Shown piece by piece: positions 23,971-41,497 of a DNA stretch of 64,000 bases. Position numbers and translations under genes: made by a program. The stretch's first letter is position 1, and the number at the start of each line of letters is the position of its first letter. The notes under the pieces are model-generated. The model had not been told where the DNA came from, did no database searches, and saw nothing but the letters and a program-made list of their open reading frames with translations. Origin of the DNA: Haloarchaeobius iranensis (lineage in GTDB: Archaea > Halobacteriota > Halobacteria > Halobacteriales > Natrialbaceae); the NCBI RefSeq assembly GCF_900103505.1, contig NZ_FNIA01000005.1, positions 1 through 64,000 of the forward strand, given 5' to 3'.

Positions 23971-24046
23971 ATCTGATGCGAGATATGGAACTACCAAAGG
24001 TAATTCGGCACAGAGACGATGCGGGAAACCGCGGAGGAACGGACGC

Positions 24047-25417
24047 GTGAGCTACCAGCAGCAGGGGAACGACGCGATACTGGCACAGCAGGCCGACCGC
24101 GAGTCGAGCGCGCGGTCGTACCCGCGGCACCTCCCGCTGGCCATCCGCGAGGCACAGGGTACGGTCGTCACGGACATGGACGGCACCGAGTACTACGACT
24201 GCCTCGCGGGTGCGGGCACGCTCGCGCTCGGGCACAACCACCCGCGCGTCGTCGAGGCCGTAGAGCGAGTGCTCGACGCGGACCGGCCCCTCCACACGCT
24301 CGACATCTCGACGCCGGCGAAGGAGCGGTTCGTCGACTCGCTGCTCGCGAGCCTGCCGGACGAGTTCGCGGAGCGAGCGAGGGTCCAGTTCTGCAGCCCC
24401 GCCGGCACCGACGCCGTCGAGGCCGCGCTCAAGCTCGTCCGCACCGCCACGGGGAACCGGAGCATCCTCGGGTTCCAGGGAGCCTACCACGGGATGACCG
24501 ACGGGTCGCTCGCGCTGATGGGCGACACCGAGGTCAAGTCCTCCGTGGGGGGAACGCAGCACGACGTCCACCACCTGCCGTTCCCGTACGAGTACCGGTG
24601 CCCGTTCGGTATCGGGGGCGACGCCGGTCACGAGGTCGCCAGCGAGTACGTCGAGAACCTGCTGGACGACGCCGAGAGCGGCATCACCGACCCGGCCGGG
24701 GTGATACTCGAACCCGTCCAGGGCGAGGGCGGTGCCGTCCCCGCGCCGGACCCGTGGCTCCGCGAGATACGGCGCATCACGCGGGAGCGGGACGTCCCGC
24801 TCGTCGTCGACGAGATACAGGCCGGCCTCGGCCGGACCGGCGCGACCTACGCGTTCGAGCACGCGGGCATCACGCCGGACGTCGTCACGCTCTCGAAGGC
24901 CATCGGTGGCGGGCTCCCCCTCGCGGTCGTGGTCTACGACGAGGCACTGGACGTCTGGGAGCCCGGCGCCCACGCGGGGACCTTCCGCGGGAACCAGCTC
25001 GCCATGGCGGCGGGCGAGGCGACCATCGACTACGTGATCGAACACGACATCGCCGACCACGCGGCCGAGATGGGCGACCGGCTCCGCACGGCGCTCACGG
25101 AGACCGCCGCGGGCGTCGACGCGATCGGCGACGTGCGCGGTCGGGGGCTCCTGCTCGGCGTCGAGTTCGTCGACCCCGACGCGGACTGGCAGGGGGCCGG
25201 GCCGCACGCACCCGACGGCGACCGTGCCGAGGCCGTTCAGGCGGCGTGCTTCGACCGCGGGCTGATCGTCGAACTGGGCGGACGCGACAGCGCGACGGTC
25301 CGGTTCCTCCCGCCGCTGACCATCTCCGCTGTCGAGGTCGACGAGGTCGCGAGCATCTTCGACGCGGCCGTCGAGGCCGTCGTCGGTGCGGCCGACCAGC
25401 CGGGGGTGGCGGCGTGA
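24047..25417 (+). CDS. dat: diaminobutyrate-2-oxoglutarate aminotransferase (RhbA-like)
   Basis: A 456-residue class-III PLP aminotransferase that makes L-2,4-diaminobutyrate from aspartate semialdehyde and glutamate. It is the first step toward 1,3-diaminopropane. The PLP-binding Lys lies in TLSKAIGGGLPL near residue 285, preceded by the VVDEIQAGLGRTG motif. The GTG start follows a GGAGG ribosome site by about 11 bases; an ATG 28 bases upstream is in another frame. It is the first gene of six that overlap end to start, and its promoter carries two iron-box palindromes. Confidence 0.9.
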   Translation: MSYQQQGNDAILAQQADRESSARSYPRHLPLAIREAQGTVVTDMDGTEYYDCLAGAGTLALGHNHPRVVEAVERVLDADRPLHTLDISTPAKERFVDSLLASLPDEFAERARVQFCSPAGTDAVEAALKLVRTATGNRSILGFQGAYHGMTDGSLALMGDTEVKSSVGGTQHDVHHLPFPYEYRCPFGIGGDAGHEVASEYVENLLDDAESGITDPAGVILEPVQGEGGAVPAPDPWLREIRRITRERDVPLVVDEIQAGLGRTGATYAFEHAGITPDVVTLSKAIGGGLPLAVVVYDEALDVWEPGAHAGTFRGNQLAMAAGEATIDYVIEHDIADHAAEMGDRLRTALTETAAGVDAIGDVRGRGLLLGVEFVDPDADWQGAGPHAPDGDRAEAVQAACFDRGLIVELGGRDSATVRFLPPLTISAVEVDEVASIFDAAVEAVVGAADQPGVAA

Positions 25418-26898
25418 CCGTCGACGACACGTTCCTCGGCTCACGCGGGGGTGACGAGGCGTACCGGGCGGCGATGCAGCGGACGACAGAGGCGGTGCTG
25501 GCGCAGGTGGCCGACCGCGAGCGGCCGTACTCCGGCCTGTCGCCGGCCGAGCTGGCCGACGCCGTCGCGGAGCCGGTCCTCCCCGAGGAGGGCGTCGGGC
25601 TCCCGGACGCCATCGACGACGTGACCGCGGCCGTGCTGCCGCACTCCGTCGCCACGTCGCACCCGCGCTGTGCCGCACACCTCCAGTGTCCGCCCATGGT
25701 GCCCGGGCTGGCAGCGGAGGCGCTGCTGACGGCGACGAACCAGTCGCTCGACTCGTTCGACCAGGCACCCGCGGCGACCGTCCTCGAGGAGCGGGTCGTC
25801 GACGCCCTCTGTGACCTGTTCGGGCTCCCGGAGGAGGGCGATGGCGTGTTCACCAGCGGCGGGACGCAGTCGAACCTGCAGGCGCTCCTGCTCGCCCGCG
25901 ACCGCTACTGCGCCCGGGTCTTCGGGCGGAACGTCCAGAGTGCGGGGCTGCCCGCCGAGGCCGACGCGCTCCGTGTCGTCTGCTCCGAGGCGGCCCACTT
26001 CACCGCACAGCAGGCCGCTCACCACCTCGGGCTCGGCGAGGACGCGGTCGTCACGGTGCCGACGGACGACCGGCAGCGGATGGACCCGGACGCGCTCGCG
26101 GCGACGCTCGCCGACCTCGAGGCCATGTCCCGCCAGCCGTTCGCGGTCGTCGGGACCGCCGGGACGACCGACTTCGGCAGCATCGACCCGCTCGACGCGC
26201 TGGCCGAGCGGGCCGCCGCCCACGACTGCTGGTTCCACGTCGATGCGGCCTACGGCGGTGCGGTCGCGCTCACCGACGAGTACGCGTCGCTGCTCGACGG
26301 CATCGAGTGGGCGGACTCCATCGCCGTCGACTTCCACAAGCTGTTCTACCAGCCCATCAGCTGCGGGGCGTTCCTGCTGCGCGACGGGGACGACTTCGAG
26401 TGGATGGCCCGGAACGCGGCCTACCTCAACCCCGAGGCCCACGACGACGGCGGCGTGCCCAACCTCGTCGCCAAGTCGACGCAGACGACGCGGCGGTTCG
26501 ACGCGCTGAAGCCGTACCTCGCGTTCCGCGCCCTCGGCCGCGAGGGGATGGCCACCCTCGTCGGGCGGACGCTCGAACTGGCCGACGAGGCGGCTGCGCT
26601 CCTCGACGCGGCCGAGGACTTCGAGCGGCTGCACGACCCGACGCTGAACGCACTCGTGTTCCGGTACCGCCCCCGCGAGGGGATGGCGGACGCGGCCGTC
26701 GGCCGGCTGAACGCGGCGGTCCGGGAACGACTCCTCGAGGACGGGCGCGCGCTCGTCGCCCGGACCGAGGTCGACGGCGTCCAGAGCCTGAAGTGGACGC
26801 TGCTCAACCCGACCTGCACCGTCGAGGACCTCGCCGCGACCCTCGACGTGCTGCGCGAGTGTGGCGCCGACGCCCTCGCCGGGGAGGTGTCGGCATGA
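25414..26898 (+). CDS. ddc: L-2,4-diaminobutyrate decarboxylase (RhbB-like)
   Basis: A 494-residue group-II PLP decarboxylase that yields 1,3-diaminopropane and CO2. The PLP Lys is in VDFHKLFYQP near residue 306, and the substrate/cofactor His-Asp region is WFHVDAAYGG about 35 residues earlier. The GTG start overlaps the stop of dat as GTGA, which suggests translational coupling. Together with dat it supplies the diamine arms of the siderophore. Confidence 0.9.
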   Translation: MTVDDTFLGSRGGDEAYRAAMQRTTEAVLAQVADRERPYSGLSPAELADAVAEPVLPEEGVGLPDAIDDVTAAVLPHSVATSHPRCAAHLQCPPMVPGLAAEALLTATNQSLDSFDQAPAATVLEERVVDALCDLFGLPEEGDGVFTSGGTQSNLQALLLARDRYCARVFGRNVQSAGLPAEADALRVVCSEAAHFTAQQAAHHLGLGEDAVVTVPTDDRQRMDPDALAATLADLEAMSRQPFAVVGTAGTTDFGSIDPLDALAERAAAHDCWFHVDAAYGGAVALTDEYASLLDGIEWADSIAVDFHKLFYQPISCGAFLLRDGDDFEWMARNAAYLNPEAHDDGGVPNLVAKSTQTTRRFDALKPYLAFRALGREGMATLVGRTLELADEAAALLDAAEDFERLHDPTLNALVFRYRPREGMADAAVGRLNAAVRERLLEDGRALVARTEVDGVQSLKWTLLNPTCTVEDLAATLDVLRECGADALAGEVSA

Positions 26899-28709
26899 GC
26901 CTCGGCGTCGAGGCGGAAGCGACGGCCGACGTCGACCCCGACGCCCGGGCCGACGATGCGGCCGTCCACGCGTTCCTCAACAGCTACCTCCGCGAGACCG
27001 GGGCGTACGAGGTCGTCGACGAGGCCGTCGGCGGCGTCGACCCCGGTGCCGACGGGCTCGCCCGCACGACGCTGCCCGCCCAGGGCATCGACCTGCTCGC
27101 CCCGCTGGCGTACCGCTCGCCGACCGAGCGCCACCTGTTCGAGACGCCGGTCCGGTACCGGCTCCCGGACGGCTCGGTCCACCCCGCGGACGCGGCCACG
27201 CTCGCCGCGCTCGTCGTGCGGGACCTCAGCCGTACCGAGGACGGCGACGCGGTCCCCGAGGAGCTGCTCGAACGAGTCCTCCGGAGCAAGCGCGCCGTCG
27301 CGTCGTTCGTCGACGCACGGGCGGGCGACGACGACCGGCTGTACGCCGAGCGGCTGTCGTTCCGGGACGCCGAGCAGGCGCTGGTCTTCGGCCACCATCG
27401 GCACCCGACCCCGAAGAGCCGGGCGGGCATCGCCGAGCGGAACCGGGCGACGTACGCGCCGGAGCTCCGCGGGTCGTTCCCGCTGTCGTACGTGCGGGCC
27501 GACCCCGAGCTGGTGGCGACGGCGTCCGCCCTGGACACGTCCGCCGCCGAGTGGGTGAAGAGCGCGCTCCGCGAGGACCCCGCCGTCACGACCGACTTCG
27601 TGGAGACGCACGTCGAGAGCGACGACGTGCTGCTGCCGGTCCACCCGTGGCAGGCGGACTACCTCCGCGACCAGCCACACGTCGCGCGCCACCTGGGCGA
27701 CGGGCTCGAGCACCTCGGGCAGGTCGGCCAGACGTTCCACCCGACCACCTCGGTCAGGACGCTGTACAGCCCGGCAGCGCCGTTCATGGTGAAGTCGTCG
27801 CTCTCGGTGCGCATCACCAACTCCGTGCGGACGAACAAGCGCCGGGAGCTCGAACGCGGCGTCGCCGTCGCCGAGCTCCTCGACACCGAGCTGGGCGACG
27901 CGCTCGCCGAGCGCTTCCCCGACTTCGACGTCGTCCGGGACCCGGCGTACCTCGCACTCGATGTCGGCGAGGGCCCCGAGTCCGGGCTGGAGACGGTGCT
28001 GCGGGCGAACCCCTTCGGCGGCGAGGGCACCACGAACGCGACGCCGGTCGTCTCGCTCTGCCAGGACGCCATCGCCGGCGAGTCACGCATCGGGCGGCTC
28101 GTCGGGACCATCGCCGAGCGGGAGGGCCGGAGCACCGCCGACGTCGCGCTCGACTGGTACCGCCGGTATCTGGAGCGGTCGGTGCGGCCAGTCCTCTGGC
28201 TCTACCTCGACCGCGGTCTCGGCGTCGAGGCCCACCAGCAGAACGCGGTGCTCACGCTCGACGACGACGGCTATCCGGAGACGTTCCGCTACCGCGACAA
28301 CCAGGGGTTCTACCTCCCCGAGTCGAAGGCGGCCGACGTCGAGCGGTACCTGCCCGGCGTCGGCGACCGGCTGGGCACCGTCGAACCCGACCTCCTCACC
28401 GACATCGCGATGGGCTACTACGTCCTCCAGAACAACGCTCTCGGCGTCGTCAACGCCCTCGGCTGTGCCGGCGTCGTCGACGAGCGACGCCTGCTCGGGG
28501 CGCTCCGGGACGAGCTCGAACGCGCCCGCGACCGGTACGACCACGCGGCGTCGAACGTGCTCGACCTGTTCCTCGACTCCGCGACCGTGCCCTGCAAGGC
28601 GAACCTGCTCACGCGGTTCCGCGGGATGGACGAGCTGGAGAACGACATCGAGAACCAGTCCGTGTACAAGAACGTGACCAACCCCCTCGTCACCGAACTC
28701 GACAGATGA
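26895..28709 (+). CDS. IucA/IucC-family siderophore synthetase (RhbC-like)
   Basis: A 604-residue NIS synthetase, which uses ATP to join a citrate carboxylate to an N-hydroxy-N-acetyl diamine. Family segments visible are HPWQADYL near residue 250, KSSLSVRITNSVRTNK near residue 300 (ATP and citrate contacts) and EAHQQNAVL near residue 445. The ATG start overlaps the ddc stop as ATGA. With the second NIS enzyme at the operon end, the two amide bonds of a schizokinen-type molecule are covered. Confidence 0.9.
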   Translation: MSLGVEAEATADVDPDARADDAAVHAFLNSYLRETGAYEVVDEAVGGVDPGADGLARTTLPAQGIDLLAPLAYRSPTERHLFETPVRYRLPDGSVHPADAATLAALVVRDLSRTEDGDAVPEELLERVLRSKRAVASFVDARAGDDDRLYAERLSFRDAEQALVFGHHRHPTPKSRAGIAERNRATYAPELRGSFPLSYVRADPELVATASALDTSAAEWVKSALREDPAVTTDFVETHVESDDVLLPVHPWQADYLRDQPHVARHLGDGLEHLGQVGQTFHPTTSVRTLYSPAAPFMVKSSLSVRITNSVRTNKRRELERGVAVAELLDTELGDALAERFPDFDVVRDPAYLALDVGEGPESGLETVLRANPFGGEGTTNATPVVSLCQDAIAGESRIGRLVGTIAEREGRSTADVALDWYRRYLERSVRPVLWLYLDRGLGVEAHQQNAVLTLDDDGYPETFRYRDNQGFYLPESKAADVERYLPGVGDRLGTVEPDLLTDIAMGYYVLQNNALGVVNALGCAGVVDERRLLGALRDELERARDRYDHAASNVLDLFLDSATVPCKANLLTRFRGMDELENDIENQSVYKNVTNPLVTELDR

Positions 28710-29374
28710 CGGCATCCGACCCCGACGACCTGGCGTACGCACCGGGCCCGGACGAGACGATCCGGTCGAACTACGTGTTCCAGCGGTACGACCGCGACAT
28801 CGAACGGACGGTATCGTTCCGGCCGGCCTCGATGGAGCGGGACCTCGGGCGGCTCCACGCGTGGCTCGGCTACGACCACGTGAAGCCGTTCTGGCAGCTC
28901 GACCTGCCGCTGCCGGAGTTCCGCGACCGGCTCGCGGAGAAGCTGGCCGACGACCACATGACGCCGTACATCGGCTACGTCGACCACGTCCCGATGAGCT
29001 ACTGGGAGGTGTACTGGGCCGCAGCGGACGACCTCGCGAACCACTACGACGCCGACCCGGCCGACCAGGGCGCACATCTGCTCGTGGGCCCACCCGAGTA
29101 CCTCGACCGGGGCTACGCGACGGCGCTCATCCGGGCGCTGGGCATCATGCAGTTCTCCCACCCGGAGACCGAGCGCGCCGTGGTCGAACCCGACGCCCGC
29201 AACGACGTGGTCATCCACGTCCTCCGACAGTGCGGCTTCGAGCCACGCAAGGAGTTCCACTTCGAGGAGGCCGAGAAGGACGCGCTGCTGATGGTCTGCG
29301 AGCGGGAGGCGTTCGAGGACGCGCTGCTCGCGAGCTCGCCCGCCACGCTCGCACGCGGAGGGAGCGATGACTGA
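28706..29374 (+). CDS. GNAT N-acetyltransferase for hydroxylated diamine (RhbD/IucB-like)
   Basis: A 222-residue acyltransferase of the IucB/RhbD group, which puts an acetyl group on the hydroxylated amine to form the hydroxamate. Visible marks are the MSYWEVYWA segment, the GPPEYLDRGYATALI acetyl-CoA-binding helix start near residue 130, and the PDARNDVVIHVL..CGF motif near residue 160. The start overlaps the preceding stop as ATGA. Cytoplasmic. Confidence 0.88.
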   Translation: MTASDPDDLAYAPGPDETIRSNYVFQRYDRDIERTVSFRPASMERDLGRLHAWLGYDHVKPFWQLDLPLPEFRDRLAEKLADDHMTPYIGYVDHVPMSYWEVYWAAADDLANHYDADPADQGAHLLVGPPEYLDRGYATALIRALGIMQFSHPETERAVVEPDARNDVVIHVLRQCGFEPRKEFHFEEAEKDALLMVCEREAFEDALLASSPATLARGGSDD

Positions 29375-30842
29375 GACGACGGACCACGCCGCGACGGGAA
29401 CCGATGCGGCGTCCTCCGCCAGCACCGACGACCAGCGGGTCCACGACGTCGTCGGCGTCGGCGTCGGCCCGTTCAACCTCGGGCTCGCCGCGCTGCTCGA
29501 CGGTGTGGACGCGGACGTCGACGCCGTGTTCTGCGAGCGCGACGCCGAGTTCCACTGGCACGAGGGCATGCTGCTCGCGGGGACGACGCTCGAGGTGCCC
29601 TTCCTCGCGGACCTCGTGACGCTCGTCGACCCGACGAACCCCCACAGCTACCTCAACTACCTGCGCGAGACGGGCCGTATCTACGAGTTCTACTTCTACG
29701 AGACGTTCCAGACCCCGCGGCGGGAGTACGACGACTACCTGCGCTGGGTGGCCGAGCGCCTCGACAGCCCCCGCTTCGACCGGGAGGTGACCTCCGTGCA
29801 GTGGGTCGCGCCGGGGGGGCACGGGGCTGGCGACGACCCCGACGGCACCGCCGACGAGGGGCACTACCTCGTGAGCGCGCACCACCCCGAGACCGGCGAG
29901 GAGTTCGAGTACCGCGGCGAGCACCTCGCACTCGGCGTCGGTTCCCGTCCGCAGGTCCCCGAGTCGCTGCAGGGCCACCCCACCGACGAGGTGTTCCACA
30001 CCGCCCGGTACCGGTACGAGCGGGCGGGCGCGCTCGACGCCGACTCTGTCACGGTCGTCGGCTCGGGCCAGAGCGCGGCCGAGGTGTTCCACGACCTGCT
30101 GGAGCGCCAGCCCGACCACGGCTACCGGCTCGACTGGCTCACCCGGTCGGACGGCTTCTTCCCGATGGAGTACTCGAAGCTCGGCCTCCAGCACTTCGCG
30201 CCGGAGTACGAGCAGTACGTCTACGACCTGCCCCAGGACGTGCGCGACGACCTCATCCCGGACCAGGACCTGCTGTACAAGGGCGTCGACCCGGACACGA
30301 GCGCCGCCATCTACGACCTGCTCTACCGGCGGTCGGTCGGCGACCGCGCGCCCGACGTCGGGCTGTTCGCCATGACCGAGGTCCGGGACATCGTGGCGAC
30401 CGGCCAGGGCTACGCGCTCGACTGCCACCAGTGGCAGGCCGAGGAGTCGTTCGTCCACGAGAGCGAGGTGGTCGTCCTCGGGACCGGCTACGAGCGACCC
30501 GTCCCGGGATTCCTCGAGCCGCTCGAGGAGGCGATCCACTGGGACGAGCGGGGGCGGTTCGCGGTCACCGCCGACCACCGACTGGCGATCGACCACCCCG
30601 GCGACGTGTTCCTCCAGAACGCGGAGGTCCACACGCACGGCGTCGGCGTCCCGGACCTCGGGCTGGGGCCGGACCGGAACGCCCGGTTCGTCAACCGGCT
30701 CCTCGGTCGCGAGCGCTACCCCGAGGACAGCGACACGGTCTACCAGGACTTCTCGGTCGAACAGTTCGTTGAGCACGCCCCGGGCGCGACCCGCCAGCGC
30801 GCGGGCGAACCGACCACCGCAGCTACCTCCGACGACAGATGA
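29367..30842 (+). CDS. diamine N-monooxygenase (RhbE/IucD-like)
   Basis: A 491-residue flavin-dependent N-hydroxylase of the lysine/ornithine monooxygenase family. The FAD fold starts at GVGVGPFNLGLAAL near residue 31, the NADPH fold is VVGSGQSAAEVF near residue 230, and the late ATGY-type motif is LGTGYERP. In this operon the substrate should be 1,3-diaminopropane (inference from dat and ddc). It overlaps the acetyltransferase gene by 8 bases. The first 25 residues are Thr/Ala/Asp-rich and probably disordered. Confidence 0.9.
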   Translation: MTETTDHAATGTDAASSASTDDQRVHDVVGVGVGPFNLGLAALLDGVDADVDAVFCERDAEFHWHEGMLLAGTTLEVPFLADLVTLVDPTNPHSYLNYLRETGRIYEFYFYETFQTPRREYDDYLRWVAERLDSPRFDREVTSVQWVAPGGHGAGDDPDGTADEGHYLVSAHHPETGEEFEYRGEHLALGVGSRPQVPESLQGHPTDEVFHTARYRYERAGALDADSVTVVGSGQSAAEVFHDLLERQPDHGYRLDWLTRSDGFFPMEYSKLGLQHFAPEYEQYVYDLPQDVRDDLIPDQDLLYKGVDPDTSAAIYDLLYRRSVGDRAPDVGLFAMTEVRDIVATGQGYALDCHQWQAEESFVHESEVVVLGTGYERPVPGFLEPLEEAIHWDERGRFAVTADHRLAIDHPGDVFLQNAEVHTHGVGVPDLGLGPDRNARFVNRLLGRERYPEDSDTVYQDFSVEQFVEHAPGATRQRAGEPTTAATSDDR

Positions 30843-32713
30843 ACCCGAACGACACGCTCCGAGACGACGCACTGCGCCCCGAGATATGGGAGACCGTCGA
30901 GCGCCGCCTCCTGACGAAGATGGTGGAGGAGTTCGCCTACGAGACGATCGTCGTCCCCGAGCCCGTGGCCGACGGGAGGGCCGACGACGTGCACGCCGAC
31001 ACGAGCCGTGCCGACCACGACGACTGGGGACGCTATCGCTTCGAGCTGGGCGACGCCGCCTACCGCTTCGCCGCGAGCGAGCGGCTGCTCGACACCCTGT
31101 CGGTGCACGAGGGGACCGTCGAGCGACGGAGCGACGACGGCTGGCGGCCGGTCGAGGACCCGCTCCGGCTGCTGCGGGACCTCGGCGCCTCGACCGACGA
31201 CCTCGACGGGCTGACCGAGGGGAACCTCGTCCGCGAGTACAGACGGACGCTGCTCGCCGACGCTCACATTGAGGCCCGGCGGCGCGAGCGCGACGGCTTC
31301 GACCCGACCGAACTCGACTACGCGCACCTCGAGGGCGAGATGGACGGTCATCCGTGGATCACCTACAACAAGGGCCGGCTCGGGTGGGGCTACGACGACT
31401 ACCGGCAGTACGCCCCCGAGCTGAAACAGCCCGTGACGCTCTCGTGGGCCGCCGTCAGCCGCGAGCGGGCGACGTTCGTCGCGACCGACGACCACGACCA
31501 CGAGTCGCTCGTCCGCGGCGAGCTCGGCGACCACTACGGCCGCTTCCGTGACCGGCTCGCGACGAAGGGGCTGGACCCCGACGACTACTACTTCCTGCCC
31601 GTCCACGACTGGCAGTGGTCCAACAGCGTCGTGCCGCTGTTCGCCGGCGACATCGCCGCCGACGACGTCGTCCCGCTGGGCGAGGGGCCCGACGAGTACC
31701 TCCCCCAGCAGTCGGTGCGGACGTTCGTCAACGTCGACCACGACGAGAAGCACCACGTGAAGGTGCCGATGCGCATCCTCAACACGCTCGTCTGGCGCGG
31801 GCTCCCCGGCGAGCGGACGAAGCTCGCGCCGACGGTCACCGAGTACATCACCGACATCTACGAGGACGACGCGTTCCTGCAGGAGCAGGGTGTCGTCCTC
31901 CCCGGGGAGATAGCCGGCGTCCACTACGACCACGGCGACTTCACCGCGGTCGACGACTCGCCGTACCAGTACCACGAGCTCCTCGGCGCGGTCTGGCGCG
32001 AGTCCGTCTACACGTTCCTCGACGACGACGAGCAGGTGGTCACGCTCTCGGCGCTCATGCACGTCGACGGCGAGGGCGTCCCCTACCTCTCGCGGCTGGT
32101 GGAGGCCTCCGGTCTCACCCTCGACGAGTGGCTCGCCGAGTTCTTCGACACGGTGCTCCCGCCGCTGCTGCACTTCCTCTACAAGTACGGGACGGTGTTC
32201 TCGCCGCACGGGCAGAACGCGATGCTGGTCGTCTCGGACGGCCGTCCCTCGCGGCTGGCGGTCAAGGACTTCGTCGACGACGTGAACGTGAGCGACCAGC
32301 CACTCCCCGAGCTCGACCGGCTGACCGCCGGGATGGACGACGTCCTCAGGAAGGAGCCACCGGAGGGGCTCTGTCAGTTCATCTTCGGGGGGCTGTTCGT
32401 CTGCGTCCTCCGGTACGTCGCCGACGTCCTCGTCGAGCGCGAGGGGTACCCCGAGGAGCGGTTCTGGGGGCACGCCCGTCGGGCCGTCCTCGACTACCAG
32501 GCGCGGTTCCCCGAGCTCGAGGACCGGTTCGAGCTGTTCGACATGTTCCAGCCGAAGTTCTTCAAGCTCGCACTGAACCGGAACCGCATCTTCGATTACG
32601 GCTACGACGACGCGCCCGGCCGGCCGCACGCGTCGGTCCACGGCTCGGTGACGAACGTCCTCGACGAGGTCGATGCGGTGGAGGCGCCGCGGCCGGGCCC
32701 CGCGGACGACTGA
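30839..32713 (+). CDS. IucA/IucC-family siderophore synthetase (RhbF-like)
   Basis: A 624-residue NIS synthetase, paralogous to the third gene of the operon. Core motifs are HDWQWSN near residue 257, KVPMRILNTLVWRG near residue 306, SPHGQNAMLVV near residue 457 and the Fe-transport-protein-like C-terminal domain. As last of six genes it matches rhbF by position and type. The start overlaps the monooxygenase stop as ATGA. It is convergent with the DapF-like gene, 23 bases apart. No siderophore exporter or uptake genes follow. Confidence 0.9.
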   Translation: MNPNDTLRDDALRPEIWETVERRLLTKMVEEFAYETIVVPEPVADGRADDVHADTSRADHDDWGRYRFELGDAAYRFAASERLLDTLSVHEGTVERRSDDGWRPVEDPLRLLRDLGASTDDLDGLTEGNLVREYRRTLLADAHIEARRRERDGFDPTELDYAHLEGEMDGHPWITYNKGRLGWGYDDYRQYAPELKQPVTLSWAAVSRERATFVATDDHDHESLVRGELGDHYGRFRDRLATKGLDPDDYYFLPVHDWQWSNSVVPLFAGDIAADDVVPLGEGPDEYLPQQSVRTFVNVDHDEKHHVKVPMRILNTLVWRGLPGERTKLAPTVTEYITDIYEDDAFLQEQGVVLPGEIAGVHYDHGDFTAVDDSPYQYHELLGAVWRESVYTFLDDDEQVVTLSALMHVDGEGVPYLSRLVEASGLTLDEWLAEFFDTVLPPLLHFLYKYGTVFSPHGQNAMLVVSDGRPSRLAVKDFVDDVNVSDQPLPELDRLTAGMDDVLRKEPPEGLCQFIFGGLFVCVLRYVADVLVEREGYPEERFWGHARRAVLDYQARFPELEDRFELFDMFQPKFFKLALNRNRIFDYGYDDAPGRPHASVHGSVTNVLDEVDAVEAPRPGPADD

Positions 32714-32736
32714 GCGTCATGCGACGGCTGTAGCGG

Positions 32737-33291
32737 TCACCGGTCCGTGGTCTGTGCGGCCCCGTCCGTCGTCCAGTCATCCGGTTCGCCGCCACCGCCG
32801 TCGTCACACGACGAGTCGGCAGTCCACGGACTATCATCGCGCCCGTCGGACACCGGACCCCTGACGACGGGCGGCCGGCTCTCGGGGAGCGACACCGCGA
32901 GTCCGGTCGCGTGGGTCGGGAGAGCGACCCTGTCACCGACCTCCACCGACACCTCCCGGCCGTGGCTCTCCGCCCGCCGCGTGCCCGCGAGCGTGTCGAG
33001 CATCACCGCGTCGGTCCCGGCCCGGTCCATCGCCCACCGTGCCGCACAGAGTGCTCCGTTCGCGGGAACCGCTTCGGTCGTCCCGTCGGGTCCGTAGGCG
33101 GTCAGCACGACGCGTGGCGGGTCGTATCGCTCCTCCAGCGCACAGAACAGGACACCGTCGAGCGCCGGCGCGCCGTCTGCTCGACACCGCGACCGGGCGA
33201 ACGCCCGCCGGTCGGCGATGCACGCCTGTGTATCGACCACGAGGTACGCGCGCCCCGCGGTACGGTAGGTTCGGGCCGGGCGGTCACTCAT
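32737..33291 (-). CDS. half-size DapF-like protein lacking the catalytic cysteine
   Basis: A 184-residue protein whose middle matches the N-terminal half of haloarchaeal diaminopimelate epimerase: LVVDTQA, a GVLFCALEERY..PRVVLTAYGPDG stretch, then VPANGALCAARWA, where DapF has its CGNG.RC motif. The first catalytic Cys is replaced by Pro, and the C-terminal half with the second Cys is absent, ending instead in an acidic low-complexity tail. The start at 33291 follows a GAGGTGAGG ribosome site; a GTG at 33381 is also open. An iron-box palindrome lies about 100 bases upstream. An epimerase activity is unlikely. Confidence 0.6.
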   Translation of the reverse strand: MSDRPARTYRTAGRAYLVVDTQACIADRRAFARSRCRADGAPALDGVLFCALEERYDPPRVVLTAYGPDGTTEAVPANGALCAARWAMDRAGTDAVMLDTLAGTRRAESHGREVSVEVGDRVALPTHATGLAVSLPESRPPVVRGPVSDGRDDSPWTADSSCDDGGGGEPDDWTTDGAAQTTDR

Positions 33292-33388
33292 CTGATCCTC
33301 ACCTCGAGTTCCAGTTTCGGGTGTTCGGCGGGTCGATTCCGGTGAAGGCGGGTCGTCTGCTGTACGGGAATCGGGGGACACATAGCCA

Positions 33389-33408
33389 GTTTTAGGTCGA
33401 CCTAAAAC
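33389..33408. promoter_or_regulatory. iron-box palindrome 3
   Basis: GTTTTAGGTCGACCTAAAAC is a perfect 20-bp palindrome, a close relative of the two sites at the siderophore promoter. It is placed upstream of the DapF-like gene read on the minus strand, so that gene probably belongs to the same iron regulon. Confidence 0.75.
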
Positions 33409-33828
33409 TTAAGCCGTCCGGTCCGCCCACAGGGAGAGTTCACCTTTCGACGGGTGCCACGGGCCGGTGACGCTACCGGCGGTGCTCGACAGTACTGTCT
33501 GTCTTTAAGATAAGGAAATTTATGGTTATTAAGCAGATAATATGACACGAACTAGATAATAAAATTCACAAGAAAAAATTAGATTTTAAATATTGAGGCC
33601 GTATTCAGACTATATAATTAGCAAAACAGTATTTATTCTCAGAATAACCACGTTATAGAATACTACAAGAAATAATTTATAATCAAAGCTAGTACAGAAA
33701 TATAACTCATATGTAATATTTTGATAGCTCCTGCGCGTGCTCTGCCCGGCCGACCATCCCCAAACCTAACGTCCGTACTGATGTTACGTTTCGCAAGCTA
33801 CTTCCCGATAGCCCGACAATCCGGGGAC
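33409..33828. other. gene-free spacer with an AT-rich core
   Basis: About 250 bases (33500-33730) are far richer in A/T than anything else in the window, with many short A and T runs and no open frame of note. It precedes rdfA. It could be an old insertion scar, a promoter region or a nucleoid-protein site. Nothing more specific is visible. Confidence 0.5.
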
Positions 33829-34416
33829 ATGGCAGGTGACGGGAGCCGGCGCGGCAAGGTCGCGCGATTGATCGACGAGCACGACCTCGACGGGGACTGG
33901 CTGGTCGAGGAGTGGACGCGCCCGGACGACGAACGGAAGAGCTTGCGACAGCTCGCCGACGCGTTCAACCGACGGCTGCTGGCGGCCGAGCTTCCGGACG
34001 TTGGGCCGACGCAGGTCGAGCGCTACCACGAGGCGCTGACCGACGACGACGCGAGCGCGGGGGTGCGGACGGAGGTCGAGGTCGAGCTCGCAGACCGGGG
34101 CATCGACGTGGACGAACTGCGCGGCGAGTTCGTCTCGTACCAGTCTATCCGGACCTACGTCCAGGCACGGGGGGCGAGCTACGAGGGGCGGTCGGCCGAG
34201 GAGCAGCGCGCGAAGGACGTCGAGAGCATCGAGCGGCTGCGTGGGCGGCTCGCCTCGGTCACGGAGGAGCGGCTCGACCGAGGCCGGCGGGCGGACCGGC
34301 TCACGCTCGGGGAGTACCGGCTGTTCGTCGACGTGACCGTCTACTGCGAGGACTGCGGCTCGCAGTTCGAGGCGACGGAGGTGCTGGAGACGGGCGGGTG
34401 CGACTGCGATTCGTAG
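33829..34416 (+). CDS. rdfA: rod-determining factor RdfA family protein
   Basis: A 195-residue protein. From memory it matches the RdfA family, named for its role in rod-shaped cells of Haloferax volcanii. It starts with GRRGKVARLIDEHDL-type helix segments (here SRRGKVARLIDEHDL), has a charged helical middle with the RTYVQARGASYEG stretch, and ends in a small zinc-ribbon tail (CEDC...CDCDS). In other haloarchaea this gene commonly sits beside an SMC-related gene, as it does here. The ATG at 33829 is chosen over upstream ATGs because the extra residues are not family-like. Confidence 0.75.
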   Translation: MAGDGSRRGKVARLIDEHDLDGDWLVEEWTRPDDERKSLRQLADAFNRRLLAAELPDVGPTQVERYHEALTDDDASAGVRTEVEVELADRGIDVDELRGEFVSYQSIRTYVQARGASYEGRSAEEQRAKDVESIERLRGRLASVTEERLDRGRRADRLTLGEYRLFVDVTVYCEDCGSQFEATEVLETGGCDCDS

Positions 34417-36351
34417 CTATATCTCGGTGACGTAGCGGTAGTCGTCGTCGAGGGCGGCGGCGTCTTCGGGCAACAGCGCGACGACGAGGAAGTCGGCGTA
34501 GTCGGCGAAGTGCGCGACGAGGTCGGTCAGTCGCTCCGCGTCGATGGCCTCCAGCGAGTCCAGCAGCATGAACGGGACTGACTCGTACACCTCGTGGACG
34601 AGGTAGCCCGCGAGCGCGAACACGAGCCCCGTCACCTCGCGCTCGCTCTCACTCAGGTGGTCGACCGTGTCCTCGTAGGTGGTGCCGCTCGCGGTGCTCC
34701 GGACGATGTGGAGCTCGAACGTCGACTCGACGTCGCCCCCGCGGCCGCCGTCGGTCTCCCGTCGTTCGATCCAGACCCGTTCGACGTTGTCGTAGTCGAG
34801 GACGCCCAGCACCGTCTCCATGTGCTCGTTGAACGCCTCGACGGCGTCGCGCTCGATGCGCTCGACGCGGGTCCGGAGGTCGGTGAGCTGGTCGGCGACC
34901 GCGTCGCGTTCCCCCTGGAGGTCCGCCTCACGGTCGAGCCGGGATTCGATACGCTCGATCTCCGCCTCCACGTCCGCGAGGTCGTCCTCGAGTCCATCGA
35001 TCTCGAACTCCAGCTGGTTCGCCTCGCGGTGGCGGTCGAGCACCTCGCCGTGCTCGCGGGTCTGCTGCTCGTCGACCTCGGCCTCGAGTGCCTCGATGTC
35101 CTCGGTCAGCTCGCGGCGTCGCGCCTGGAGGTCGTCGAGGGCGTCGCGGCGTCGGTCGAGCTCGTCCTCGACCCGTCGGAGGCGGGACTCGGCCGACTCG
35201 CGGCTGGACTGCGCCCGTTCGAGCTCGCGTTGCTCCTCGCGGAGCGTCTCTATCTCGTCCTCGACGTCGGCGAGGTCGTCGAGCCGGTCCTGCCTGACGG
35301 AACGGAGCTCCGCCACGGTGGCCGCCACCTGGTCGGCCTCGACGCGCGTCCCGCAGGTCCAGCAGGTCACGGTGTCGTCGACGAGCTGGTCCGTCAGCGC
35401 GCCGTCCTCGTCGTCCCCGCCCACGTCGTCGGGCAGGCTCGTGTCCCCGTCGAGCAGCTCCTCGTTGAACTCGACGATGCTCATGAGCTCGGAGAGCTGG
35501 GCGTTCAGCTCGTTCTTTCGGGTCCGGAGTCGGTCTATCTCGCGTTCGAGGTCGGCGCTGTTACCCATCGGCGTCTCGGGCAGTTCCGCGAGTTCGTTCT
35601 CCACATCGCTCCGCTCCGCCCGGAGCGACTCGATGCTGCGCTTCTGGGACTCGATGTCGCCGCGGACAGACTCGAGTTCCGAGCGCGTCTCGGAGAGCGC
35701 CGAGAGCTTCGACTCGAGAGCCTGTTTCTCGCGTTGGCTGGCCTCGACGCTCGCGTCGGCGTCCTCGATGAGCCCCTCGACCTCGGCCAGCTCGGCCCGC
35801 TTCTCGTCGATGGCGTCCTCGATGCGGGTCCGTTCGGCCTCGAGTTCCGGGAGCTCTCCCTTCAGCGAGTCCAGTTCGTCGAGGCGCTCGTCGAGGTCCG
35901 CCTTCTCCCGTTCGAGGTCGGCGATCTCCTGCTCGATGGCGGTCGTGTCGATGGGGCGCATGAGCAGTTCGCGGAGGTCGCCACGCGTCGCGACCGCCCG
36001 TCGGGCCTCGTTGTCCTCGAGGAGGAACGCGAAGAGTTCGGCCAGTTCTGGGTCGTCGGTGAATGGGTCGCCATCGGTGGTGACGGTCCCACCGGCGGTG
36101 CGTCGGAGCGTCCGCGTGTACGTCTCGTCACCCAGTTCGAGATCGACGCGTCCCTCGTCGGCGTCGCGCTTGAGGCTGGCGTCGTCGCTACCGACGGCGG
36201 CCATGACGCTCTGGAGGAACGACGTCCTGTTCGTTGCGTTCCGCCCGGACAGGACTGTTACGCCCCGTTCGAGCTCGACTGTCGCGTCGTCGATGCCGCC
36301 GACGTTCGACACCGAGAACACCGCATGGTCTGCAGTCTCTACCGAATCCAT
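34417..36351 (-). CDS. archaea-specific SMC-related protein
   Basis: A 644-residue ATPase of the Rad50/SMC type. The head begins with an unusual P-loop SGRNATNRTSF (residues 35-45) that lacks the normal GKS/T lysine. Two long coiled-coil arms (about 135-300 and 340-520) surround a zinc hook CWTC at residues 330-333. The C-terminal head has a signature-like LSESEREVTGL and a Walker B PFMLLDSLEAID. It ends one base after the convergent rdfA gene. A physical or functional link with RdfA is inferred from this recurring pairing. Confidence 0.85.
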   Translation of the reverse strand: MDSVETADHAVFSVSNVGGIDDATVELERGVTVLSGRNATNRTSFLQSVMAAVGSDDASLKRDADEGRVDLELGDETYTRTLRRTAGGTVTTDGDPFTDDPELAELFAFLLEDNEARRAVATRGDLRELLMRPIDTTAIEQEIADLEREKADLDERLDELDSLKGELPELEAERTRIEDAIDEKRAELAEVEGLIEDADASVEASQREKQALESKLSALSETRSELESVRGDIESQKRSIESLRAERSDVENELAELPETPMGNSADLEREIDRLRTRKNELNAQLSELMSIVEFNEELLDGDTSLPDDVGGDDEDGALTDQLVDDTVTCWTCGTRVEADQVAATVAELRSVRQDRLDDLADVEDEIETLREEQRELERAQSSRESAESRLRRVEDELDRRRDALDDLQARRRELTEDIEALEAEVDEQQTREHGEVLDRHREANQLEFEIDGLEDDLADVEAEIERIESRLDREADLQGERDAVADQLTDLRTRVERIERDAVEAFNEHMETVLGVLDYDNVERVWIERRETDGGRGGDVESTFELHIVRSTASGTTYEDTVDHLSESEREVTGLVFALAGYLVHEVYESVPFMLLDSLEAIDAERLTDLVAHFADYADFLVVALLPEDAAALDDDYRYVTEI

Positions 36352-36373
36352 GTTCCGCACGTCGAACGTGGTG

Positions 36374-36381
36374 GATATAAA
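36374..36381 (-). promoter_or_regulatory. TATA box of the SMC-related gene
   Basis: TTTATATC on the minus strand, centred about 27 bases before the ATG. This spacing is that of a leaderless haloarchaeal transcript and supports the start chosen for the gene. Confidence 0.6.
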
Positions 36382-36621
36382 CGTTCGTGGTCGGGCACCC
36401 GCATACGCGGAGAATAACAGCAGTACTCTTGTTATGACTGGGCTCGGCCGGAGTACTCCATCGATGGACCTGTTCACGTGACGAAACGGTCCGGGGGGGA
36501 GTCGTCGATGCGCGTCGGTCACGAGCCCCCGGAGCGGTGCTCGCCAGGCGCTGTCTGGCCGGTCCGTCGGGCGATTGTGGGTTGTCCCAGGACGGAGATG
36601 GTGCGGTCGACCCGCGCACTG

Positions 36622-36638
36622 ATTTCGCATTACGAAAT
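36622..36638. promoter_or_regulatory. candidate IclR-family operator, copy A
   Basis: ATTTCG-CATTA-CGAAAT, perfect 6-bp arms with 5-base spacer. The same arms and spacing occur immediately upstream of the iclR gene of this island. It lies about 435 bases before the first chitinase gene. Confidence 0.45.
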
Positions 36639-37071
36639 TCCGGAGTGGGTGGCGTTCGCAACCGACCGCGCTGGCTCCTGCCGGCGAGATGCGTTCCACG
36701 ACACCCACGTCGTGGGTTTCACCCCGTTTTCCGGTCGGTTCGCGTCCGGATGGGTCGGGTGGGACTCGCGGCCCGATCGTCACTATGACGAAATTCGGCG
36801 GCTCGACATCGGCCACGTCCGGCGCCGATAGACTTTTGTCGGCTGTGAACGCATACCAATCCACATCACCACTAGCTCCGGTGTCGCTGGCGATCCGTGC
36901 TCGCCGGACCGCCGCCGCGAGAGCGACAGGTATATTATTTGCAGTATTTACGTATGTGAATTATATAGTTTGCTAGAATAGATTTTTAATATAGCCACCG
37001 TAAACTACTGCCGAGGTCGCACACTACGGCACGGTCGCGGAAGCGACGAGTGTGGCCTCGTCATCCAACCC

Positions 37072-37516
37072 ATGACACAGGACAGACGCAGCTACCTACG
37101 GAACGTATCGGCACTCGTCGCGTCGGTCGTCGGCGCGAGCGCGGCAGCATCGGCGGGGGACACGCCGCCCGAGTGGGACTCGGAGACGGTGTACACGGGC
37201 GGTGACCGGGTCGTCTACGACGGCTACATCTGGGAGGCCGAGTGGTGGACCCGGGGGACGACCCCGAGCGAGAGCGCGAACGTGTGGACGAAGATCGGGC
37301 CCGTCGACGGCGGCGGTGGCGGCGGCGAGCTGCCGCCGGCATGGAGCGCCGAGGCCACGTACACGGGCGGCGACCGGGTGACCTACGAGGGCTACATCTG
37401 GGAGGCCGAGTGGTGGACGAGGGGCGACGAGCCGACCGTCGAGGCCAACGTCTGGACCCAGGTCGAGCCCGTCGAGGACCCCGACGAACCGGCCGGCCCG
37501 ACGGCGTCGTTCACCG
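37072..37516 (+). repeat. 445-bp direct repeat, copy 1 (chitinase 5' end)
   Basis: Covers the Tat leader and both chitin-binding modules. It is nearly identical to 41053-41497 apart from a short block of changes around 37250-37270, and similarity drops sharply at the end of the PKD linker. Confidence 0.9.
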
Positions 37517-38868
37517 CGAGCGAGGCGGTCGTCGACCCGGGTACCGAGGTTGACTTCGACGCCAGCGGCTCCGAGGGCAGCATCAGCAGCTACGAGTGGA
37601 GCTTCGGCGACGGCGGGACCGCCACCGGCGAGGTTGTCTCGCACACGTTTGCAACGGCGGGCGAGTACACCGTCGAGCTGACCGTGACGAACGATAGCGG
37701 GACGAGCGACACGGCGACCGACACTATCGTCGCCGACGGTGGCACCCCGACCGAGGACCGTGTCGTCGGCTACTACATGCAGTGGTCGCAGTGGGACCGG
37801 GAGTACTATCCCGGCGACATCCCGCTGGACAAGGTCACCCACGTCAACTACGCCTTCCTCACCGTCGAGCAGGACGGGGCGGTGAACTACATCAGCGAGA
37901 ACGCGGCGATGCGCGTGCTCGAACCGGAGTCCTGGCACGACCACACCGGCTTCGACGAAATCGTCGACGACCCCGACACGCAGTTCCTGTTCTCCATCGG
38001 CGGCTGGAACGACTCGAAGTACTTCTCGAACGCCGCCCAGACCCAGGAGAGCCGCGAGCGCTTCGCGAACACGGCCGTCGAGATTATGCGCGAGCACGAC
38101 TTCGACGGACTGGACATCGACTGGGAGTACCCCGGCGGCGGCGGCAAGTCCGGCAACATCGTCCGCGATGGCGACAAGCAGCGGTACACGGAGCTCCTCC
38201 AGACGGTCCGCCAGAAGCTCGACGAGGCGGAGGACGAGGACGGACAGGAGTACCTCCTGACGACCGCGCTGTCGGCCGACCCCAACAAGAACGAGGGGCT
38301 AGACCACGCCGCGAACGCCCAGGCGCTCGACTTCCTGAACGTGATGACCTACGACTATCACGGGGCGTTCGACGACAACACGAACCACCAGGCCCCGCTG
38401 TACTACAAGGAGAACGACCCGTCGCCGCGCGCGGACGACTTCAACATCGACGCGTCGATGTCGTTCTGGGCCGACACCGCCTTCGACAATAACCAGCTCT
38501 CGCTCGGGCTGCCGTTCTACGGGCGCAGCTTCGGGAACGTCGCCAGCAGCGACAACGGCGGGCTCTACCAGTCCTTCGAGGGCTCGCCCGACGGCACCTG
38601 GGGCCAGGACAACGGCATCATGGAGTTCTGGGACATCGACCAGAACCTCGAACCCAGCGGCGAGTACGAGTACTACTGGGACGACACCGCGAAGGTCCCC
38701 TGGATCTACTCCGAGTCGAACGACGTCCTCGTCAGCTACGACAACCCCGAATCAGTCGGCATCAAGACGGACTACGCCGTCGAGAACGACTTCGGCGGGA
38801 TGATGTTCTGGACGTTCTCCGGCGACAAGAACGAGGTGCTGCTCGACACGGTCCTCGACCACCTCTGA
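37072..38868 (+). CDS. GH18 chitinase with two CBM5/12-like modules and a PKD domain
   Basis: A 598-residue secreted chitinase. A Tat leader with DRRSYLRN (residues 4-11) is followed by two ChiC-type chitin-binding modules (about 34-76 and 90-133; AEWWT core), a PKD domain (about 145-222) and the GH18 barrel (about 230-598). The catalytic DxxDxDxE is Asp345, Asp348, Asp350 and the acid Glu352. It should cut chitin to chito-oligosaccharides outside the cell. The first 445 bases are almost identical to those of the second chitinase. First gene of the chitin island. Confidence 0.95.
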   Translation: MTQDRRSYLRNVSALVASVVGASAAASAGDTPPEWDSETVYTGGDRVVYDGYIWEAEWWTRGTTPSESANVWTKIGPVDGGGGGGELPPAWSAEATYTGGDRVTYEGYIWEAEWWTRGDEPTVEANVWTQVEPVEDPDEPAGPTASFTASEAVVDPGTEVDFDASGSEGSISSYEWSFGDGGTATGEVVSHTFATAGEYTVELTVTNDSGTSDTATDTIVADGGTPTEDRVVGYYMQWSQWDREYYPGDIPLDKVTHVNYAFLTVEQDGAVNYISENAAMRVLEPESWHDHTGFDEIVDDPDTQFLFSIGGWNDSKYFSNAAQTQESRERFANTAVEIMREHDFDGLDIDWEYPGGGGKSGNIVRDGDKQRYTELLQTVRQKLDEAEDEDGQEYLLTTALSADPNKNEGLDHAANAQALDFLNVMTYDYHGAFDDNTNHQAPLYYKENDPSPRADDFNIDASMSFWADTAFDNNQLSLGLPFYGRSFGNVASSDNGGLYQSFEGSPDGTWGQDNGIMEFWDIDQNLEPSGEYEYYWDDTAKVPWIYSESNDVLVSYDNPESVGIKTDYAVENDFGGMMFWTFSGDKNEVLLDTVLDHL

Positions 38869-38996
38869 CCCCGGCACCGCTGCATGACATCGCGGCCCGC
38901 TCCCGTCCGTCGCTCCCGTAACGGGCGATGTCCGGGGCGCTGGTCGTATACGGTCTGAACAACCACCGAAAGCAACCACAGTTCGCAATTACCAGC

Positions 38997-40811
38997 ATGT
39001 CCGAAGACGAACCCTACGACAGAGACAGGCGTAGCTTCCTCAGAACACTCGGTGCCCTCGGGGCTGCCGCGGGAATCGGCGGCGTCGCCGGTGCGACCCC
39101 GGGCCGGCAGCCAGGGCCGAAGGAGGACGAACTCCTCGTCGGCGTCGAGCCGACGGCCAGCGTCTCGGCGGCCGCGTCGACCGTCGAGTCGGCCACCCCG
39201 TCCGACACGAGCGTCGTCCACCGAAACGAGACGCTCGGCTACCTCGCGGTGCGGGTCCCGGGGTCCGAGGCCAGCAGCGAGTCGAGCACCGCGTCCGGCA
39301 TCCGCGCGCAGTCGGGCGTCGCGTACGTGGAGGAGAACGCGACGTACCACGCGTTCTTGACGCCGGACGACCCGCAGTACGGGCAGCAGTACGCGCCACA
39401 GCAGGTGAACGCCCCGTCGGCGTGGGACACCACCCTCGGCAGCGAGGGCGTCACCATCGCGGTCGTCGACCAGGGGACCGACTACACCCACCCGGACCTC
39501 TCGGCCCGCTTCGGCAGCGAGGACGGGTGCGACTTCGTCGACGACGACGGCGACCCGGCCCCGAACGCGGCGAGCGAGAACCACGGCACCCACGTCTCCG
39601 GCATCGCCGCCGCGACGACCGACAACGGCACGGGCGTCGCCGGCATGTCCGACTGTACGCTGCTCTCCGTCCGCGTGCTCGGCGGGGGCGGCGGCGGGTC
39701 GCTCAGCGACATCGCGGACGGCATCCAGTGGGCTGCCGACCAGGGGGCCGACATCATCAACATGAGCCTCGGGGGCGGCGGCTACAGCCAGACGCTCAAG
39801 GACGCCGTCTCCTACGCGCTGAGCAACGGGACCCTGCCCATCTGTGCCGCCGGGAACAGCGGTCAGCGCGGCGTCGCCTACCCGGCGAAATACAGCGAGT
39901 GCGTCGCGGTCGGCGCGCTCGACCAGAACGAGAACCTGGCGAGCTTCAGCCAGTACGGGCCCGACCTCGACGTGGTCGCACCGGGGGTCGACGTGCTCTC
40001 GACCGTCCCCGGCGGGTCGTACGAGCGTCTCTCCGGCACCTCGATGGCGTGTCCGGCGACCAGCGGCGTCGCGGCGCTCGGCCTCTCCGCGAACCCCGGG
40101 CTCTCCGCCGAGGAACTGCGGAGCCAGCTCCAGGACACTGCGGTCGACGTCGGCCTGGGCGAGGAGAAGCAGGGCGACGGTCGCGTGGACGCGGCGAACA
40201 TCGTCGGCGACGGTGGCGGCGGTGACCCGACCGCCTCCTTGACCGTCTCACCGACCGACCCGGCCGTCGACGAGACCGTGTCGGTCGACGCGTCCGGCAG
40301 CAGCGACGACGGGACCATCGCGAGCTACGAGTGGGCGTTCGGCGACGGGGCCACCGCGACCGGCGTCACGGCCAGCCACGCCTACGGGGCCGCAGGCGAG
40401 TACACCGTCGAACTCACCGTCACCGACGACGACGGGAACACCGCGACGGCTACCGAGACCGTCACCGTCTCCGACGACGGTGGTGGCGAGTACCCCGCGT
40501 GGGACCCCGAGACGGTCTACACCCAGGGCGACCGTGTCACGTACGACGGCAAGGTCTGGGAGGCCCAGTGGTGGACCCAGGGCACCGAACCTAGCAGCGA
40601 GGCGAACGTCTGGGAGATGGTCGAGGACGACGACCCCAGCACCGACTGCTCCGGCATCCCGAGCTGGGACGGCACGACCGTCTACACCGACGGCGACGAG
40701 GTCGTCTTCGAGGGCACGCTCTGGCGTGCCAAGTGGTGGACCCGGGGCACCGAACCCGCGACGAGCGCGCCGGTCTGGGAGATGCTCGGCGACTGCCAGG
40801 GCTCGCAGTGA
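38997..40811 (+). CDS. chitin-binding subtilisin-like protease
   Basis: A 604-residue halolysin-like S8 protease. A Tat leader with DRRSFLRTLG (residues 10-19), a propeptide, then the catalytic domain with Asp158 (DQGTD), His196 (NHGTHVSG) and Ser349 (GTSMACPATSG). These are followed by a PKD domain (about 410-495) and two CBM5/12-like modules at the C-terminus with AQWWT and AKWWT cores. Start: the ATG giving MSEDEPYDR; an upstream ATG adds residues ahead of the leader. Placed between two chitinase genes, it probably strips protein from chitin-protein matrices (inference). Confidence 0.92.
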   Translation: MSEDEPYDRDRRSFLRTLGALGAAAGIGGVAGATPGRQPGPKEDELLVGVEPTASVSAAASTVESATPSDTSVVHRNETLGYLAVRVPGSEASSESSTASGIRAQSGVAYVEENATYHAFLTPDDPQYGQQYAPQQVNAPSAWDTTLGSEGVTIAVVDQGTDYTHPDLSARFGSEDGCDFVDDDGDPAPNAASENHGTHVSGIAAATTDNGTGVAGMSDCTLLSVRVLGGGGGGSLSDIADGIQWAADQGADIINMSLGGGGYSQTLKDAVSYALSNGTLPICAAGNSGQRGVAYPAKYSECVAVGALDQNENLASFSQYGPDLDVVAPGVDVLSTVPGGSYERLSGTSMACPATSGVAALGLSANPGLSAEELRSQLQDTAVDVGLGEEKQGDGRVDAANIVGDGGGGDPTASLTVSPTDPAVDETVSVDASGSSDDGTIASYEWAFGDGATATGVTASHAYGAAGEYTVELTVTDDDGNTATATETVTVSDDGGGEYPAWDPETVYTQGDRVTYDGKVWEAQWWTQGTEPSSEANVWEMVEDDDPSTDCSGIPSWDGTTVYTDGDEVVFEGTLWRAKWWTRGTEPATSAPVWEMLGDCQGSQ

Positions 40812-41052
40812 GGCCGTCCGCCGTCGGTGACTGACCGCCCGTCCCCGTCCCACCGATGGGGTGGGGGCCGACGAGCAGCATCTCTATTTTCAGTACAAAT
40901 ATAGTTAGATTAACTCGTAGAAGAATACTTATTATCTTCTGGCCGGAAGATTCGGCCAGCGTCCACGAGCACGCGTGGGGTCGACGGCACCGGCCGTCGG
41001 TAGCGGGGCGGCCGCGACCGCACGCACGACTCCGGTGGACCGGAATCCGACC

Positions 41053-41497
41053 ATGACACAGGACAGACGCAGCTACCTACGGAACGTATCGGCACTCGTC
41101 GCGTCGGTCGTCGGCGCGAGCGCGGCAGCATCGGCGGGGGACACGCCGCCCGAGTGGGACTCGGAGACGGTGTACACGGGCGGTGACCGGGTCGTCTACG
41201 ACGGCTACATCTGGGAGGCCGAGTGGTGGACGAAGGACACCACGCCGAGCGAGAGCGCGAACGTGTGGACGAAGATCGGGCCCGTCGACGGCGGCGGTGG
41301 CGGCGGCGAGCTGCCGCCGGCATGGAGCGCCGAGGCCACGTACACGGGCGGCGACCGGGTGACCTACGAGGGCTACATCTGGGAGGCCGAGTGGTGGACG
41401 AGGGGCGACGAGCCGACCGTCGAGGCCAACGTCTGGACCCAGGTCGAGCCCGTCGAGGACCCCGACGAACCGGCCGGCCCGACGGCGTCGTTCACCG
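41053..41497 (+). repeat. 445-bp direct repeat, copy 2 (chitinase 5' end)
   Basis: Second copy of the leader and chitin-binding region, 3981 bases from the first. The near identity at third positions implies recent duplication or ongoing gene conversion. Confidence 0.9.

Follow-up and report, generated by a model that had tools for sequence, protein, structure and literature searches.

Proteins built on the diaminopimelate epimerase (DapF) fold have been described in several settings that bear on the gene considered here. CntK, of the staphylopine pathway, we take to be a PLP-independent racemase of DapF fold that serves metallophore biosynthesis. The diaminobutyrate (Dab) racemase PddB is a two-domain, PLP-independent racemase with two catalytic cysteines (PMC8225329), and the two catalytic cysteines and the substrate contacts of DapF-fold enzymes are described in that account and in PMC5296763, which also gives the domain borders of CgDapF as residues 1-131 plus 268-277 for the N-terminal domain and 132-267 for the C-terminal domain. 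The DapF of Escherichia coli is, in addition, a non-catalytic activator of RppH, and an inactive variant that does not dimerise still stimulates it (PMC7144940). In haloarchaea, a six-gene schizokinen operon is known (PMC7407949), as are DtxR-family regulators of iron genes (PMC11349517).

We have analysed a stretch of 64,000 nucleotides of contig NZ_FNIA01000005.1 from Haloarchaeobius iranensis (the window), in which a gene with a DapF-like product lies beside a siderophore operon of the schizokinen type. The genome searched comprises 3.77 Mb in 73 contigs and has an intact lysA-dapF pair elsewhere (contig C39); this dapF and its counterpart in Haloarchaeobius sp. FL176 share 96% identity. 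The features discussed below are as follows.

17761..57780, no strand: segment of about 40 kb missing in two sister species (limits from sister genome G004; right limit about 59.9 kb in sister genome G003)
23918..23971 (23918-23935 and 23954-23971), no strand: iron-type box pair ahead of the siderophore operon, from a motif scan
24047..32713, plus strand: six-gene schizokinen-type siderophore operon, from family matches and the same gene order in relatives
32737..33291, minus strand: DapF-like single-domain gene of 184 aa that starts at ATG 33291, the range including the stop codon
32740..32850, minus strand: unmatched acidic end, aa 148-184, with 11 acidic and 2 basic residues, modelled mostly at low confidence
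32851..32901, minus strand: retained DapF terminal strand, aa 131-147, from a C-terminal sub-profile and a modelled strand at 142-146
32917..33273, minus strand: core of the DapF N-terminal domain, aa 7-125, from the haloarchaeal DapF profile, with model blocks over aa 11-120 at pLDDT 85-97
33055..33066, minus strand: PANG in place of the catalytic CGNG, aa 76-79, from the alignment to DapF
33288..33383, minus strand: 31-codon ORF directly past the box, its TGA overlapping the ATG of the DapF-like gene (ATGA)
33388..33409, no strand: iron-type box, a 22-bp perfect palindrome in the sequence

The operon encodes, in order, an aminotransferase, a decarboxylase, an IucA/IucC family protein, a GNAT acetyltransferase (PF13523, E 7.7e-47), a Lys/Orn monooxygenase and a further IucA/IucC family protein. 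The DapF-like gene is convergent to it and ends 23 bp from iucC, so that it faces the operon and is not part of it. Both lie inside the segment of about 40 kb, the flanks of which are 166 bp apart in sister genome G004, and no IucC match was found in the other five genomes of the genus. A search of the 64-kb window recovered no tRNA, and comparison of the segment ends for shared repeats gave a best exact match of 11 bp. The segment also carries ChiD-like chitinases, subtilases, ABC transporter genes, an extra rdfA and an SMC-related gene; the RdfA gene (PF21811) and the archaea-specific SMC-related gene (NF045487) are convergent at 33829-36342, close to the iron box, and between rdfA and the DapF-like gene lies a strikingly AT-rich stretch (33500-33730, 24.7% GC) in a region otherwise of 65-73% GC. 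Iron starvation raises the level of Sph3, an Smc-like protein of Haloferax volcanii, 17.7-fold, according to the account in PMC11349517.

The reading frame of the DapF-like gene can be extended to a 214-aa form (32737-33381) from GTG 33381. It is ATG 33291 that aligns with the starts of DapF proteins, and translation from the GTG is thought unlikely, given that the first 30 codons from it have a GC3 of 0.467 and are not coding-like.

Descent from DapF was evident when the protein was compared with a haloarchaeal DapF profile, which scored 116.9 bits over aa 7-125, a region with 38-54% identity to haloarchaeal DapF and 50% identity to the host's own. General libraries matched weakly, PF01678 at E 0.22 with 12.1 bits (Pfam cut-off 34.7) and TIGR00652 at E 8.2e-6 with 25.4 bits, below its curated threshold of 114.65; a search of PDB sequences returned no DapF and a single match, to Dicer-like protein 4 at E 0.62, and PHROGs gave nothing better than E 0.32. 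For these comparisons 43 DapF loci were collected, two of which (L051 and L057, with GTSND) were removed by a motif filter, and 24 of the remaining 41 entered a first alignment, 15 of them being used for codon models; 78 of 80 named DapF loci were used in the profile, charge, column and tail tests and 51 of the 80 in another alignment.

The alignment bears out the earlier observation that the motif of the first catalytic cysteine has been replaced: CGNGARC reads PANGALC here (MCGNGAR to VPANGAL), so that this cysteine is gone. The N11 loop is likewise mostly changed (HGTGNDF to RTAGRAY), as is the Q44 loop, in which GVGADG aligns to GAPALDG with small gaps. Beyond the two cysteines and the substrate contacts cited above, the loop residues are taken by us to be catalytic as known DapF sites. 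Among the 47 columns conserved in at least 95% of the 78 named DapFs, 15 of 25 were lost in the catalytic loops vs 6 of 22 elsewhere (Fisher P 0.039, with loop borders drawn after the alignment had been seen). Outside the loops, 28 of the 29 columns that are always hydrophobic in those DapFs are still hydrophobic. The excess of acidic over basic residues in the core is 0, vs a mean of 7.3 (range 0-13) in the 78 true DapFs.

The earlier note had described the C-terminal half as replaced by an acidic tail, which holds for the last part of the protein (from about aa 148 to 184, acidic and unmatched) and fails for aa 131-147, which match its terminal strand in DapF. When the DapF C-terminus was made into a sub-profile, it scored 7.9 bits against the tail, a value reached by none of 2000 shuffled tails; sub-profiles made from the first and the central part of the C-terminal domain found nothing there. 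Two further tests of the tail were weaker: the score of the whole DapF profile was equalled at any position by 31 of 2000 shuffled tails and within the terminal region by 2 of 2000, and a mean pairwise score was equalled in 21 of 300 shuffles. Since aa 131-147 match the terminal strand, the C-terminal domain was deleted internally. The deletion fits the published borders of CgDapF nearly domain-precisely (PMC5296763), and what is left of the protein is the N-terminal domain, complete with closing strand and followed by a brief acidic stretch, the C-terminal domain having been removed near its borders. That the tail might instead be the start of the C-terminal domain after deletion of a linker was considered and rejected: although 5 of the 78 tblastn rows covering the locus hinted at such an alignment, a sub-profile of that part scored -3.2 bits, which 1612 of 2000 shuffles equalled. 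With E allowed up to 1, no reading frame of the locus gave a DapF match past DapF residue 163.

Structure prediction agreed with the earlier view that the N-terminal fold is kept, in a manner dependent on the alignment. AlphaFold2 with a 52-row alignment gave a DapF-like fold at a mean pLDDT of 80.4 and a pTM of 0.74, and placed strand 142-146 in a block at pLDDT 83 although no alignment row reached the DapF C-terminus. VIA-align superposed aa 4-158 of the model on E. coli DapF (4ijz), spanning 1-274, with Z 14.0 over 153 residues at 2.8 A. The single-sequence model, made with no alignment, was poor (pLDDT 47.9), so that the predicted fold rests on homology. From both profile and model, then, the protein is a DapF descendant with an N-terminal-domain fold, and the model suggests that this domain would fold alone, the old cleft face becoming an exposed and changed surface. 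By what is known of DapF chemistry it cannot be an epimerase, as the earlier note had also supposed, because the first catalytic cysteine is missing and so is the C-terminal domain, which carries the second; a role as racemase or epimerase of the siderophore pathway was rejected on the loss of both cysteines and one domain.

The palindrome ahead of the gene proved perfect, as had been noted earlier, and measures 22 bp instead of the 20 bp then given. Its core, TTTTAGGTCGACCTAAAA at 33390-33407, occurred once in the window with up to 3 mismatches allowed, and not at all in 100 shuffles. Across the genome TTTTAGGNNNNCCTAAAA occurred at up to 3 mismatches in 34 places, two of them perfect, vs 22 for the reversed control. 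The better boxes adjoin Fhu-type binding proteins, an ABC/FecCD operon, a DUF5059-plastocyanin protein and the siderophore operon, and a ferritin-like gene stands beside weaker ones; annotated neighbours are mostly, not all, of iron-uptake or iron-storage types, a single box preceding a Gluconate_2-dh3 family gene that is not an obvious iron gene. In all six named relatives inspected, two or three boxes precede the siderophore operon. The box at the DapF-like gene is thus of the same kind as those before the iron genes of the host, in line with its earlier description as an iron box, and it would be expected from its sequence to bind a DtxR-family regulator. Boxes are often paired, with 34-36 bp between starts (26 bp in loci L109 and L112). 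After several of them an ORF's earliest ATG or GTG follows at a distance of 2-9 nt, as it does for the DUF5059-plastocyanin protein. At the DapF-like gene there is one box, 98 nt ahead of ATG 33291. Siderophore operons begin 75-112 nt past the last box in the window and five relatives, so the distance to ATG 33291 is not abnormal and both starts, this one and that of the 31-codon ORF, are possible.

The expectation that orthologues would be found next to siderophore genes was not borne out. The gene was absent from all 16 siderophore loci fetched from other species, and we have rejected its membership of a conserved siderophore cluster on that count; nor was an orthologue recognised in about 420 genomes of the order, searched at E up to 0.001. 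Among the matches listed, the family search gave a match in 79 of 125 genomes and the order search, a sample with at most 8 candidates scored per genome and partly the same genomes, in 269 of 392; two further families gave 27 of 28 and 24 of 26, all or nearly all of these genomes being already in the order search. Because each of these genomes gave a single match, and from the lengths of the frames, the matches are probably true DapFs. Two matches, among those listed, occurred only in the host genome, where one is the true DapF, and in genome G200, where the second is weak (E 7.8e-4, 30% identity) and has two internal stops. The stretch in G200 and one in G422 (E 0.0027) are weak DapF-like sequences with in-frame stops, either decayed copies or noise. 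No relative came from plasmids or viral contigs, two plasmid rows at E 0.8 being taken as chance, or from GTDB contigs scanned with a pattern; one further DapF-domain row in the 64-kb window, at 45.5 kb, had E 0.041. A literature search, with thin coverage of subscription journals, returned no report of such a protein.

We favour, with confidence about evenly balanced between acceptance and doubt, the reading that this is an iron-repressed, folded and catalytically dead single-domain derivative of DapF that would act by binding. When iron is plentiful, a DtxR-family regulator would, to judge by the box, repress its transcription; in iron starvation repression would be released in parallel with that of the facing siderophore operon. 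The N-terminal domain, if the homology-driven model is right, would fold by itself with its former cleft face exposed and altered, and in the weakest step of the scheme it might then bind a protein or a small ligand during iron starvation, with no catalysis. The part in iron uptake that the earlier note had suggested, as a binding or regulatory protein, is likewise a possibility.

The main competitor, a serious one though less probable than our reading, is a relic: a DapF copy brought in with the island or made within it, which lost its second domain and is now drifting, its box being coincidental through rearrangement or serving another gene. The earlier note had named absence of orthologues elsewhere together with frequent stops as the mark of a decaying dapF copy. 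The former was found and the latter was not, the 184 codons holding no stop or frameshift; when neutral decay of the 111-column core was simulated, however, roughly half of the copies acquired a stop, so that the absence of stops says little. Presence in one genome only, an intact dapF elsewhere in that genome, a very long branch (1.19 substitutions per site) and the lost acidic bias all suit a relic, as does a flattened codon-position GC (0.745, 0.62 and 0.826, vs about 0.60-0.77, 0.39-0.49 and 0.92-0.96 in eight neighbours); compared with 24 true DapFs, only second-position GC is out of range (0.591 vs 0.45-0.52), GC3 falling inside their range of 0.74-0.98. Against it stand the perfect box and a deletion near the domain borders, and also the codon models: fixing dN/dS at 1 on the DapF-like branch cost 10.5 lnL (15 true DapFs, 110 codons), 10.5, 14.4 and 7.9 lnL in a second model set with three frequency sets, and about 8 lnL in a third family. 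The branch estimate is about 0.1, and below about 0.4, a rough value because synonymous change is saturated, and the free-omega fit of the third family hit the boundary. Some settings separate the models by only a few lnL: an all-neutral 64-state model reached lnL -2970.3, 4.3 below the best even-GC fit (-2966.0), and constrained evolution followed by full decay, a possible history, reached -2969.4, 3.4 below the best even-GC fit in the second model set. Neutral decay simulated from the inferred ancestor retained 28 of 29 core hydrophobics with P 0.0015 at t 0.8 and in none of 2000 simulations at t 1.06 (P below 0.0005), these being the fitted divergences, and less strikingly at lower assumed decay (t 0.6 gave P 0.018 and t 0.5 gave 0.043); the core/loop contrast arose with P about 0.006. 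The codon models and the simulation argue against plain neutral decay, the core having been kept while the catalytic loops were lost.

The box might alternatively serve the 31-codon ORF, the DapF-like gene being a mere downstream passenger, an arrangement we consider improbable. Its ATG 33383 lies 6 nt past the 18-bp box core, as suits the spacing of 2-9 nt seen at several boxed genes, and the ATGA overlap ties the two frames; among the fetched loci, however, nothing is convincingly homologous to its peptide (best match other than itself E 0.033, antisense to iucC), and the spacing of siderophore operons makes the longer distance to ATG 33291 unremarkable. No better chance is given to a pseudo-subunit, in which the N-terminal domain and the dimerising strand would pair with true DapF and lower its activity in iron starvation. 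DapF dimerisation is reportedly essential for catalysis, and the last DapF strand is retained. The changed dimer position speaks against this reading: by our alignment of the GPV segment the Tyr268 position is Arg here, being Phe in most haloarchaeal DapFs inspected, whereas a gap of one residue decides if R36 has been preserved. Dimerisation is abolished in E. coli DapF that carries Y268A and R36A (PMC7144940). The dimer interface is described as mainly the beta16 strand and a loop of the N-terminal domain (PMC5296763), and beta16 is, in our own reading, the last strand. A wider version, with a partner in DapF or a neighbouring enzyme of the lysine branch and an aspartate-derived precursor diverted to the siderophore operon in iron starvation, is a long shot, less probable still; if true, it would be a pseudoenzyme coupling amino-acid and metallophore synthesis. 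Should the gene be a relic, it would represent ordinary island decay. Should the protein be made, as our preferred reading has it, it would be a one-domain DapF-fold pseudoenzyme, its closing strand kept, that has been captured by iron control; one half of a two-domain fold could then live alone, and its binding to DapF, or to an intermediate of the siderophore, would be open to direct test.

Set beside the known systems, the operon resembles that of Haloferax volcanii (HVO_B0041-B0046, for schizokinen) in all six genes, and the DapF-like gene, next to the operon in the host, is not found in the 16 related loci. With DapF (TIGR00652, PF01678) the protein shares the N-terminal domain fold, the core residues, the terminal strand and the native start position; it is without the C-terminal domain and the two catalytic cysteines, has mostly changed N11 and Q44 loops and misses both curated cut-offs. 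It belongs to the same fold family as CntK and PddB, and its gene adjoins a metal-chelator pathway with a diaminobutyrate transaminase, much as CntK presumably belongs to a metallophore pathway, but those enzymes have two domains and two catalytic cysteines and the DapF-like protein has neither. The E. coli DapF that acts on RppH is full-length and two-domain, with a bacterial partner, whereas the protein described here has one domain; the E. coli pair nonetheless provides a precedent for a DapF fold that acts by binding.
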